From positions 1-10,736 of the forward strand of contig JABDRH010000271.1 in assembly GCA_013041835.1 (NCBI GenBank): a stretch of DNA of 10,736 nt. Reading direction: 5' to 3'. The notes under the pieces are model-generated. The model ran no database searches. It was not told where the DNA came from and was given only the letters and a program-made list of their open reading frames with translations. Shown piece after piece: positions 6,846-9,113 of the stretch (positions within the stretch are counted from its first letter, which is position 1; the number at the start of each line of letters is the position of its first letter). Origin of the DNA: Desulfatitalea sp. (GTDB lineage: Bacteria > Desulfobacterota > Desulfobacteria > Desulfobacterales > Desulfosarcinaceae). A program made the translations under genes and the position numbers.

Positions 6846-6872
6846 TTGACTCGTAAGAGGGGAAAGTATAAA
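6846..6872 (+). promoter_or_regulatory. Promoter of the initiator tRNA gene
   Basis: TTGACT (6846-6851) and TATAAA (6867-6872) are separated by 15 bases, a little short of optimal. A start near 6879 would leave a leader of about ten bases before the tRNA. Confidence 0.6.
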
Positions 6873-6888
6873 AGGTGGTTTTACTTGA

Positions 6889-6965
<77 letters not shown>

Positions 6966-6979
6966 CAAATGAAATCAGG

Positions 6980-7015
6980 AGGGCCTGGATCCAAAATCGA
7001 GGCCCTATTTTTTTT
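6980..7015 (+). terminator. Intrinsic terminator of the tRNA-fMet transcript
   Basis: AGGGCCT (6980-6986) and AGGCCCT (7000-7006) form a perfect 7-base-pair stem around a 13-base loop, followed by A and eight T residues. Confidence 0.88.
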
Positions 7016-7169
7016 GTATTCCCCGCCTATTCCACTGCGCATGCAAGTACGATGTAAACATTTTCGAAAATTCAGGCTTATTGACCTTAATGCCTGTTAA
7101 TTTGTTCAGTTCATGGAAATAAATAGATTGACCACAATATATAGGAACATTTAAGTTATTACGGTGCAC
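7005..7169 (-). pseudogene. Possible minus-strand gene remnant (54 codons)
   Basis: The minus strand is open from a GTG at 7169 to a TAG at 7005-7007 and reads with a natural amino-acid mix, for example NVPIYCGQSIYFHELNKLTG then VNKPEFSKMFTSYLHAQW. It runs into the tRNA terminator, has no ribosome site, and a stop lies just upstream in frame. I do not recognise a family. It may be the tail of a gene cut when the islet formed, or a chance reading frame. Confidence 0.15.
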
Positions 7170-7203
7170 TGGTTGGGGCTATGTATTTTTTTCTTGCAAT
7201 TTA

Positions 7204-7231
7204 TTGACATCGGTATAGTTATAGCTAAACT
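7204..7231 (+). promoter_or_regulatory. Promoter of the toxin-antitoxin-chaperone-like operon
   Basis: Consensus TTGACA (7204-7209) and TAAACT (7226-7231) are spaced by 16 bases. The start would fall near 7238, only a few bases before the ATG at 7246 that opens the toxin fragment. Confidence 0.55.
7213..7230. promoter_or_regulatory. Imperfect palindrome overlapping the promoter (candidate autoregulatory operator)
   Basis: GTATAGTTATAGCTAAAC is symmetric at 14 of 18 positions and fills the spacer and -10 of the promoter. HigA-type antitoxins commonly repress their own promoter through such sites; binding by the XRE protein encoded here is inferred. Confidence 0.4.
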
Positions 7232-7245
7232 TTCAGTAAAGACGA

Positions 7246-7407
7246 ATGATTGATCGGCCGATAAGACTTTATTGCGGAGATGATTGTATTGCATTAACCA
7301 ATGGCTTCAGAAAAAAATCCCAAAAAACTCCAAAAGGGAAAATCGAAAGAGCAAGTCGTATAAAAACAGAGTATGACCAGATTAGAAAGGGGTTCAGCCA
7401 TGACTAA
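7246..7407 (+). pseudogene. Truncated HigB/Gp49-family (RelE-fold) toxin, C-terminal half only
   Basis: A 53-codon frame whose product contains RLYCGDDCIALTNGFRKKSQ followed by KTPKGKIERASRIKTEY. This is the signature of the C-terminal half of phage-derived Gp49-like/HigB mRNA-cleaving toxins, whose usual pattern is a strand ending in LxxGF, then KKTQKTP, then a helix starting EIxxA. Complete members have about 90-120 residues; the N-terminal helices and first strands are absent, and in-frame stops (7216, 7222, 7237) and the other two frames upstream show no trace of them. The frame overlaps the start of the XRE gene by eight bases, the normal packing of toxin and antitoxin genes. Probably an inactive remnant left by a deletion, but a short expressed product from ATG 7246 cannot be excluded; its ribosome site is weak. 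Confidence 0.6.
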
Positions 7408-7816
7408 TGAGACACTCTATGAGGAATATACCCAAGATAAAGAGTTTGAACGACTCATGGCGCAAGAGGATCTCATCATACAGGTAACTGAATCTTTCTG
7501 TAAAATCCTCGAAAATGAAAATATAAAGAGAAAGGATCTTGCTGAATTGCTTGGAAAGACTAAAGGCTTTATTTCACAGATACTTAATGGCACTAGCAAT
7601 GTTACACTTAGGACTATTTCTGATATCGCTCAAGTTCTTGGCCATAGAGTTGATTTTAAAATCCACAAAAAAAACCAAGTCCCGAAACGAGATACTTTTT
7701 ACCAAGATTGGGACGAGAATACGCTAGGTAGATTTAACAATATCAACCCTTCTGATGACTATCCCTCCACCGACAGCGCTACTGAGCCTGAAGGTGAATG
7801 GGCATTAGCTTCCTGA
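7400..7816 (+). CDS. XRE-family HigA-like antitoxin/regulator with C-terminal extension
   Basis: A 138-residue protein from ATG 7400, chosen because AAAGGGG (7386-7392) sits seven bases upstream; an earlier ATG at 7373 lacks such a site. A helical lead (1-40) precedes a helix-turn-helix of the lambda-repressor type: IKRKDLAELLGKTKGFISQI then LNGTSNVTLRTISDIAQVLG (about 42-81). After residue 90 comes a polar tail with scattered aromatic residues (TFYQDWDENTLGRF, then EGEWALAS at the end). In chaperone-controlled systems such as M. tuberculosis HigA1 (Rv1956) a C-terminal chaperone-addiction segment follows the DNA-binding domain, and this tail is the equivalent position. It probably neutralised the adjacent HigB-like toxin and represses the operon promoter. 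The next gene overlaps its end by 19 bases. Confidence 0.85.
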   Translation: MTNETLYEEYTQDKEFERLMAQEDLIIQVTESFCKILENENIKRKDLAELLGKTKGFISQILNGTSNVTLRTISDIAQVLGHRVDFKIHKKNQVPKRDTFYQDWDENTLGRFNNINPSDDYPSTDSATEPEGEWALAS

Positions 7817-8319
7817 ACAACATGAATATTAAAAGGCCAAAAGAAGAATTTAAAACGCTTGCAAAAATCTCTCGATGCACTGAATTAATAGGTCTATATT
7901 TAGTCAATGCTCAAGTGAGTCGGAAACCAGAAATTGGGCAGTTTAAGAACATTGGGGCCGAGTTTGAATATTCTGGAAGCCTCTTTGAAAGAAAGGACGA
8001 TCAGTTTCAAGCCAAAGTTGATATTTCTGTAAGAGGGGTCAACAAAGATGAGGATGAACCTCAACCAGAAGTGAGCATTCAAGGTGAATATCTTGTCACC
8101 TACAAAATTATATACAATTCGGAAATTTGCGATGCGGATCTTGAAGTGTTCTGTTCGATAAACGCCCTTTATAATGTCTGGCCCTACTTTCGGCACCTTG
8201 TCTCAAGCATGTGCAATACAATGTATATTCCACAGCTTCTGCTTCCTCTTTTAAGAATTATTCAGGGAAAACAGGCTGATGACAGAGATATGATTGAAGA
8301 GACACCACAGGTAGAGTAA
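7798..8319 (+). CDS. SecB-like chaperone of a toxin-antitoxin-chaperone (TAC) type operon
   Basis: A 173-residue protein whose second half shows the SecB-fold signature as seen in solitary SecB-like chaperones: alternating beta strands (QAKVDISVRG, VSIQGEYLVTYKI), then INALYNVWPYFRHLVSS and YIPQLLLPLLR (about 121-153). The canonical export chaperone SecB holds unfolded preproteins for SecA; its relatives in TAC systems (Rv1957) instead hold the antitoxin C-terminus and protect it from proteases. The gene starts inside the XRE gene (ATG 7798, with AAGG four bases before), so the two are translationally coupled; ATG 7822 is an alternative with no ribosome site. The AT-rich base composition matches the XRE gene and differs from the genes on both sides. 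I favour the antitoxin-chaperone role over general export because of the gene order. Confidence 0.8.
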   Translation: MGISFLNNMNIKRPKEEFKTLAKISRCTELIGLYLVNAQVSRKPEIGQFKNIGAEFEYSGSLFERKDDQFQAKVDISVRGVNKDEDEPQPEVSIQGEYLVTYKIIYNSEICDADLEVFCSINALYNVWPYFRHLVSSMCNTMYIPQLLLPLLRIIQGKQADDRDMIEETPQVE

Positions 8320-8427
8320 CCAAAGTCATTTTGCTCAGAATGAAGATTGTCACCATATTCTCCCTATCCAATAGCTTGATATATTATCCGACACCAATCA
8401 GCGCTCAGGTCTTGTGGATCAAAAATG

Positions 8428-8454
8428 AAAGGGCCTGGTAGCACCAAGCCCTTT
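8428..8454 (-). terminator. Hairpin between the islet and the right-hand genes
   Basis: AAAGGGC-C-TGG and CCA-A-GCCCTTT form a stem with one mismatch around a five-base loop. The T-rich tract follows only on the minus strand (CATTTTTG), where no gene needs it, so its job is uncertain. On the plus strand it could slow transcription leaving the islet or lie in the next gene's leader. Confidence 0.3.
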
Positions 8455-8480
8455 AGATGACGATGGTTTCCATATTGCAT

Positions 8481-9113
8481 ATGAACTTTAAGAGCAGGAT
8501 TTCTTTCGGTAGTATGATGTTGCTCTACTGCCTGGTATCTGCCGGCGGCATCGGCTGGCTGGGCGGGCGGCCCAATACCGCCTGGGCCCAGGAGAGGGGA
8601 AAACCTGCGGAAGAGGTGATTAAAGTCACGCGCATTGCACCCGCGGAGCAGGGTGGTCAAGCGTACCGGCTGGTCTATACGGTTTCAGCGGCGTTGCCGG
8701 TCTACTGGCGTTTCAAGACCGACTTCAATAATGATTTTCTTGTCGAGAACAAGTTTATCCAGGCACATCGGGTGATTTCACGGCAGGGCAATACGGTTAT
8801 CACCGAAAACAAGTACACCAACCGCCCCACTGCCTCCTTCCGATGGCAAACGGTGGTCGTGCCGGAAATATATCGTATCGAATTCAAGCTGTTGAATCCG
8901 GAAGCATGCCATCACACGTTTCACTATGGCAACATCCAGTTGGAAGCCGTTGCGGGGGGCACACGCGTGACCCAGATCGCCTATTTTGACTTCGCCGGCG
9001 CCACCTTGTGGGCCATCTATCCCTGGCGGGGAGGCATGCGGGATTTTCTGACTTACACGGCCCGTTGGGAACAGGAGACGATCCAGCGGCTCAAGGCGCG
9101 TTACGTCCGCTGA
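8481..9113 (+). CDS. Exported SRPBCC/START-like domain protein
   Basis: From ATG 8481 the product has 210 residues; an ATG at 8457 would add eight before the signal peptide, and neither has a good ribosome site. The N-terminus is a signal peptide: basic NFKSR, a hydrophobic run (MMLLYCLVSAGGIGWLGG), and a likely AWA-QE cleavage, so the mature protein is periplasmic or secreted. The remainder has the strand pattern of SRPBCC/polyketide-cyclase-like ligand-binding proteins: VYWRFKTDFNNDFL, HRVISRQGNTVITENKY, SFRWQTVVVPEIYRIEFKLL, HHTFHYGNIQLEAV, then a C-terminal helix GGMRDFLTYTARWEQETIQR. Such folds hold hydrophobic ligands; none can be named here. The next gene follows 32 bases later on the same strand, so the two probably form an envelope operon. 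Confidence 0.7.
   Translation: MNFKSRISFGSMMLLYCLVSAGGIGWLGGRPNTAWAQERGKPAEEVIKVTRIAPAEQGGQAYRLVYTVSAALPVYWRFKTDFNNDFLVENKFIQAHRVISRQGNTVITENKYTNRPTASFRWQTVVVPEIYRIEFKLLNPEACHHTFHYGNIQLEAVAGGTRVTQIAYFDFAGATLWAIYPWRGGMRDFLTYTARWEQETIQRLKARYVR

Follow-up and report, generated by a model that had tools for sequence, protein, structure and literature searches.

The stretch of DNA analysed here (the window, 10,736 nucleotides from a Desulfatitalea genome) carries a HigBA-SecB type toxin-antitoxin-chaperone (TAC) operon that has probably been disarmed by an in-frame deletion inside its toxin gene and is now an antitoxin-chaperone (AC) module, perhaps retained or tolerated for a use that the antitoxin may have without its own toxin. 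We put the probability of this reading at about 60%. The locus varies a known system in an informative way and does not represent a new one, AC loci being already in print. Its features are as follows.

6889 to 6965, plus strand: tRNA-Met (ARAGORN), upstream edge of the putatively acquired island
6990 to 8450, ends approximate: A+T-rich island with the module, GC mostly about 34-42% against about 48-62% in the flanks
7204 to 8319, plus strand: predicted HigBA-SecB type TAC operon, three collinear genes 3' of tRNA-Met
7204 to 7231, plus strand: probable promoter and operator, with TTGACA and the half-sites GTATA (7213-7217) and TAAAC (7226-7230)
7246 to 7407, plus strand: HigB/Gp49 toxin gene of 53 codons with a predicted in-frame internal deletion (from PF05973, frame profile, operator-antitoxin distance and N-terminal match)
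7246 to 7278, plus strand: putative retained toxin N-terminus, about 11 codons, the less certain part; shares 21 of 33 nt with the start of the toxin gene in locus L003
7279 to 7404, plus strand: retained toxin C-terminus (last strand, loop equivalent to K95/Q98/K99, C-terminal helix), residues 8-47 on profile positions 84-123 of 127
7400 to 7407, plus strand: overlap of toxin stop and antitoxin start, 8 nt
7400 to 7816, plus strand: XRE (HigA-type) antitoxin, 138 aa, HTH_3 match at E 2e-9
7658 to 7813, plus strand: chaperone-addiction-like tail at the antitoxin C-terminus, 52 aa with 6 aromatics and an SDDY motif
7822 to 8319, plus strand: SecB-like (SecB-TA) chaperone, 165 aa (PADLOC, AlphaFold2/Foldseek, profile hit)
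from 8457: gene 3' of the module, with only a weak, below cut-off match to Polyketide_cyc2

The 53-codon frame matches PF05973 (Gp49) at 24.9 bits (E 2.1e-5, cut-off 23.9), with residues 9-38 on positions 58-87 of the 90-position profile. A profile of the C-terminal part, made from the toxins of relatives with the window row excluded, finds the same frame at 40.7 bits (E 2.8e-12), the next best frame of the window reaching E 0.81. These matches confirm the HigB/Gp49 signature that the sequence-only reading had proposed for the fragment. The overlap with the XRE gene that it described is also present, and this native junction survives: the toxin ends at +8, counted from the antitoxin ATG, both in the window and in L004, and likewise overlaps by 8 nt, by coordinates, in L003, while the junction elsewhere in the relatives ranges from a gap to longer overlaps. 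The same reading took the toxin to be cut to its C-terminal half. It is crippled, but it is not decapitated, since it still has its native promoter, its native start position and probably some 11 N-terminal codons; what it has lost is the middle.

The toxin ATG lies 14 nt past the operator in the window and 2-13 nt past it in relatives. The distance from operator to antitoxin is 168 nt, against 350-425 nt in 16 distinct loci with unbroken toxins, and the gene has 53 codons against 121-137 in those toxins. In its first 33 nt the gene agrees at 21 positions with the start of the toxin in L003, the nearest relative. When ATG positions in the fetched loci were scored on either strand, this match came out on top, window copies aside, and was tied once, by an unrelated frame holding a stop (L091). 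Residues 8-11 can be assigned to either end, the profile itself placing residues 8-47 in the C-terminal part, and profile positions from about 12 to 83 of 127 are missing. No hidden N-terminal half of the toxin was found by profile in any other frame of the window (best score 2.0 bits). The native start position, the short operator-antitoxin distance, the N-terminal match, the alignment of the C-terminal part and the lack of an N-terminal half in other frames together suggest an in-frame internal deletion of roughly 70-80 middle codons, of which the N-terminal assignment is less certain. A pure N-terminal decapitation was rejected on account of the start position and the N-terminal match.

According to the account in PMC9098466, the toxicity of HigB-TAC is inhibited by each of the alanine changes at K58, R68, R77, K95 and K99. 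By eye, the stretch with the equivalents of K58, R68 and R77 is missing from the window and the F-x-K-K-x-Q-K pattern is kept, so that among these catalytic residues (Mycobacterium tuberculosis numbering) only the K95/K99-equivalent region is left. With nothing but this loop and the C-terminal helix kept, in a mapping made by eye, the window toxin should be inactive. The toxin of an intact relative (L017) covers PF05973 positions 2-86 of 90, and its predicted model (pLDDT 91.6) matches Streptococcus pneumoniae HigB (6af3/6af4) and M. tuberculosis HigB1 (7awk/7nbu). The divergence of the C-terminal part in the window is not clearly greater than expected from antitoxin identity (residuals from -1.19 to +1.51 sd, with 10 of 14 comparisons falling below the line). 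The host assembly is an 87% complete draft of 693 contigs, with the window on a 10.7 kb contig; no other PF05973 match was found in it at E 0.1, and thus a cognate toxin in trans is not visible.

The antitoxin shares 30-50% identity with nine TAC-type antitoxins of relatives and is preceded by a Shine-Dalgarno-like AAAGGGG. Like the antitoxins of TAC systems, it appears to carry a chaperone-addiction-like extension after its XRE domain. The length of this tail is 38-56 aa in all 17 loci with a chaperone and 23-34 aa in all 8 without one, and the motif [SAPE]D[DNGS]Y, picked after the tails had been seen, occurs in 13 of the 17 against none of the 8 (Fisher p 4.6e-4); L070, whose contig stops too early to show a chaperone, is left out of this count. 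Tail and chaperone come and go together, which fits the chaperone-addiction model and agrees with the chaperone-addiction experiments described in PMC5105189 and PMC6377645. Three loci (L104, L105, L065) have an unbroken toxin and antitoxin, no detected chaperone and shortened antitoxin tails; they appear to have passed from TAC to plain TA, or in the opposite direction.

The third protein, called SecB-like in the sequence-only reading, proved to be so by three routes, and a SecB-like chaperone is what a HigBA-type TAC has in this place. It matches the PADLOC profile PD-T4-9_C at E 1.8e-6 and, in a profile search, Rv1957 (PDB 5mtw) at E 3.7e-8. Its AlphaFold2 model (pLDDT 85.8) has its best Foldseek match in 5mtw (E 2.9e-8; TM 0.68 by query and 0.80 by target), the structure of the Rv1957 chaperone with the HigA1 addiction peptide. 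The protein has no Pfam match of its own: PF02556 misses it and matches 3 of 8 aligned members. PF02556 also finds no SecB in the host genome, where a divergent SecB could escape it just as the window chaperone does, and no second relative of the window chaperone was found there. The start at 7822 aligns with relatives and leaves 5 nt after the antitoxin; the overlap of XRE and SecB-like genes once described holds only for a longer frame from 7798 and is to be dropped. With an HTH_3 domain, an addiction-like tail and a predicted SecB-TA fold, the earlier assignment to the TAC type with intact-looking antitoxin and chaperone stands.

The three genes had also been placed behind one promoter. On consensus alone this fails: TTGACA-16-TAAACT at 7204 is a match of a kind found at chance level (3 found, 4.2 expected), and a promoter was accepted only since relatives share the element. 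In related loci the toxin is immediately preceded by TTGAC-N4-GTTTA-N8-TAAACT, an element in which an inverted repeat spans the -10 box. Allowing at most one mismatch, the operator has a single site per genome, at the module, in 9 of 9 genomes searched; the remaining 11 hits carry two mismatches and are at background level, a reversed control pattern giving 13 in all. Conservation before the toxin in relatives and uniqueness at the module in all nine genomes indicate that the element is probably the operator of the XRE protein. A regulon of the orphan antitoxin was considered and rejected, no second site with at most one mismatch occurring in any of the nine genomes; its absence from the host genome of the window likewise speaks against a wider regulon.

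The order thioesterase-DUF167-tRNA-Met (Pfam names) upstream of the module is present in every one of the ten other genomes of the genus. None of the ten has an XRE or SecB match at this tRNA-Met locus, within fetched loci that reach roughly 1.2-1.4 kb past the tRNA, and none has relatives of the chaperone at E 1e-3 or of the antitoxin at E 1e-8. The tRNA site without the module, together with the missing relatives, implies that the module was acquired horizontally by the lineage of the window, loss by all other members of the genus being the less likely alternative. Integration through direct repeats at the tRNA was rejected, since no repeat of at least 12 nt within 6850-8700 involves the tRNA; two repeats elsewhere are chance-sized. 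Among plasmid records the chaperone finds one, at 25.6% identity (E 1e-3), and the antitoxin none (E 1e-8); among phage records the chaperone finds none (E 1e-3) and the antitoxin finds phage mEp237 in two records (E 1e-5). A 12-pair hairpin lies at the downstream edge of the island (8428-8454) and was scored as terminator-like on the minus strand only.

A search of the GTDB 220 collection with the antitoxin alignment found related loci in 6 contigs, and the closest related loci are HigB-XRE-SecB operons. Overlapping samples of whole genomes, with the own genome counted each time, gave antitoxin relatives in 17 of 389 genomes for the order (E 1e-8), 12 of 389 for the class (1e-12) and 19 of 395 for the phylum (1e-15); one other family (f79) gave them in 15 of 22 genomes at 1e-20. 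From 29 entries, 25 distinct operator loci were assembled by hand after removal of duplicates (L015=L057, L016=L098) and of loci cut by contig ends (L099, L024); distant HigBA loci (L025-L036, L068, L069, L072-L074) and viral-contig loci except L053 were left out. The toxin is broken or missing in 9 of the 25 (the window, L003, L060, L061, L062, L070, L071, L102 and L103), the reading frame being shifted or interrupted by a stop, or sequence between operator and antitoxin having been deleted. It is unbroken in the other 16, so that the comparison with related loci proposed earlier did yield full-length toxins, and the relatives are not a set of XRE-SecB pairs that never had a toxin upstream. 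No antitoxin has a stop or frame break (0 of 25; Fisher p 0.0016 against 9 of 25), in a contrast favoured by antitoxin-seeded searches, which under-sample loci with a lost antitoxin.

The operator varies in a few loci, L008 having the half-sites without the TTGAC box and L070/L071 having half-sites of the GTTAA type. These last two belong to a more distant subgroup, without which the broken toxins number 7 of 23; L072, of the same subgroup and outside the count, has an unbroken toxin segment. L061 and L102 apparently share one loss, which leaves at least 8 loss events. L003 was at one time taken as a full-length relative and then moved to the broken set, its toxin frame being itself broken near the N-terminus. 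In L060, L062, L103 and L070 the lesions are small and mid-gene (profile positions about 66-88), and two in-frame stops fall close to the same conserved position. Programmed recoding of these split toxins was considered; as the lesion types differ, they are read as losses, a reading short of proof. In L061, L102 and L071 the antitoxin is kept with nearly no toxin left. In family f79 a murB-like frame lies downstream in 14 of 15 loci, within the fetched stretch (MurB_C confirmed by Pfam for L061), and this shared site makes different states of the module comparable at one position.

Other arrangements were seen beside these loci. Two viral contigs, L090:2819-2974 (IMGVR_UViG_3300031654_000003) and L054:2801-3004 (3300037468_000790), have just a C-terminal Gp49-like toxin piece abutting an XRE gene, with C-part profile scores of 21.1 and 10.4 bits and no N-terminal half nearby; Pfam gives no match at E 0.01 for the piece in L090, and the L054 contig ends after the XRE gene. 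In L006, L007 and L009 a SecB-like gene follows a small protein and a HicB protein, in the order of a HicAB-type TAC; in L007 the HicB match is at E 1.6e-12 and the SecB match just under the cut-off, and the small protein has no Pfam match at E 0.01. On contig C5 of genome G348 a related 105-aa XRE gene occurs three times within about 18 kb (L029, L037, L038), two of the copies with a TAG inside the match.

Evidence for selection on an antitoxin without a toxin comes from L061 and L102, which have in common the operator, a palindromic repeat in place of the toxin and the 3' junction. By Nei-Gojobori counts, their antitoxins differ with a dS of 1.0 and a dN/dS of 0.088 (0.047 in the core; Fisher 4e-19), and the murB genes of these two loci with a dS of 0.68 and a dN/dS of 0.152. 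Other antitoxin pairs with dS below 1 give dN/dS from 0.131 to 0.5, two such pairs including a broken-toxin locus, and more diverged pairs go down to 0.044. Set against these values, 0.088 shows no relaxation of the orphan antitoxin, suggesting that an orphan antitoxin of the HigBA-SecB family is probably kept by selection. The shared loss appears likely and falls short of proof, because the palindromic repeat is less diverged in the alignment than the synonymous sites of the antitoxin and the antitoxin dS (1.0) is above that of murB (0.68). The idea that the pair is kept for another job is thus supported indirectly and in part: both loci also lack the chaperone, and so speak to the antitoxin and not to the keeping of an antitoxin-chaperone pair.

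The chief alternative is decay, with antitoxin and chaperone intact only through the recency of the toxin deletion and no selection on either. Their intactness could indeed mean merely that the deletion is recent, and we consider this possible, if somewhat doubtful. It is in keeping with a toxin broken in 9 of 25 distinct loci, with lesions of which some are apparently recent (the toxin pieces of L103 and L105 still give dN/dS of 0.23 and 0.05), with a C-terminal part in the window not yet clearly diverged and with a module missing from the rest of the genus. It has to be set against an antitoxin that has been orphaned for a dS of about 1 under strong constraint in L061/L102, and against a window that has lost neither the operator nor the overlap, the tail or the predicted fold. 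It counts against retention that a search of the ten other genomes of the genus found no close relative of the window copy, the selection evidence being that of L061/L102 and not of the window copy.

That the 53-aa product is itself functional, as a mini-HigB binding the ribosome or the antitoxin or as a short translated leader coupling antitoxin translation, is unlikely. The third helix of HigB-TAC is described as contacting P-site tRNA and uS13 (PMC9098466), the frame opens at the native start position and closes in the native 8-nt overlap, and the short C-terminal pieces in viral contigs L090 and L054 likewise abut XRE genes. However, the product covers about 3 of the 9 secondary-structure elements of the intact fold (by eye), an in-frame outcome has a chance of one in three, the antitoxin has a Shine-Dalgarno-like site of its own, and in L061, L102 and L071 an antitoxin persists with hardly any toxin left; the fate of a short peptide toxin, once suggested, finds no support. 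Very improbable too is a working TAC in trans, in which the pair would control a full HigB elsewhere in the same cell. TAC antitoxin and chaperone act as diffusible proteins, which would permit it, but the fragment is the sole PF05973 match at E 0.1 in a genome of which 13% may be missing. A deletion created by the assembler, conceivable for a short contig of a fragmented draft, is hardly to be expected given an in-frame junction with overlap and operator intact, and given different lesions of the same gene in several other assemblies.

The preferred reading remains that of a HigBA-SecB TAC operon which would have been gained horizontally and then turned into an AC module by the in-frame internal deletion of its toxin. 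The antitoxin would repress its own operator, the chaperone would fold the antitoxin through the tail, and the 53-aa product would not be an RNase; most likely the AC pair functions under its own operator, behind a dead mini-toxin as leader. The pair may be retained or tolerated as the antitoxin would be useful without its own toxin, most likely in neutralising homologous toxins from mobile elements or in local autoregulation. A wider interpretation, which we offer only tentatively, is that the toxin is the disposable part of the system, repeatedly lost through different lesions behind a kept operator, that the remaining antitoxin, accompanied in the window by its addiction tail and chaperone, is a selected, self-regulated protection against homologous toxins, and that the window stands at the step from TAC to AC. 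The operator-bearing family forms a natural series, from the full TAC through a toxin without chaperone to a broken toxin with or without chaperone. Most of this series is found at a single position, 5' of murB, within one family (f79), and it includes in L061/L102 a species pair whose orphaned antitoxin appears to be under purifying selection.

By gene order and spacing, the window appears to have the toxin-antitoxin-SecB arrangement in one operon that characterises HigBA-type TAC systems. With the HigB1-HigA1-Rv1957 TAC of M. tuberculosis (Rv1955-Rv1957) it shares the gene order, an XRE antitoxin with an aromatic-rich C-terminal tail, a SecB-like chaperone whose model best matches Rv1957 and, through the intact toxin of a relative (L017), the HigB1 fold. 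It differs in that its toxin lacks the middle and thus most catalytic residues, and its tail has, by eye, no clear sequence likeness to the M. tuberculosis chaperone-addiction peptide. The family of the window is marked by the conserved operator GTTTA-N8-TAAAC. The CmdTAC system (PD-T4-9) is also tripartite, and its PD-T4-9_C profile matches the window chaperone; its toxin CmdT, however, is described as ADP-ribosyltransferase-like (PMC9519451), whereas the window toxin is a crippled HigB/Gp49 with no claim to that class.

Why bacteria keep antitoxins without toxins is debated, and anti-addiction is often proposed. Orphan type II antitoxins are reported as common in Klebsiella, with an anti-addiction role proposed (PMC7192599); they resemble the window in having no working partner, whereas the window has a dedicated chaperone and selection after toxin loss was measured in a sister lineage. 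A parallel in kind is offered by the AC loci described in PMC4257090, where SecB lies next to an antitoxin gene alone. The window likewise has an antitoxin with a SecB-like chaperone beside it and, judged from its sequence, no functional toxin, but it still shows a toxin remnant, an in-frame deletion and a retained promoter-operator, and these make visible how a TAC becomes an AC locus.
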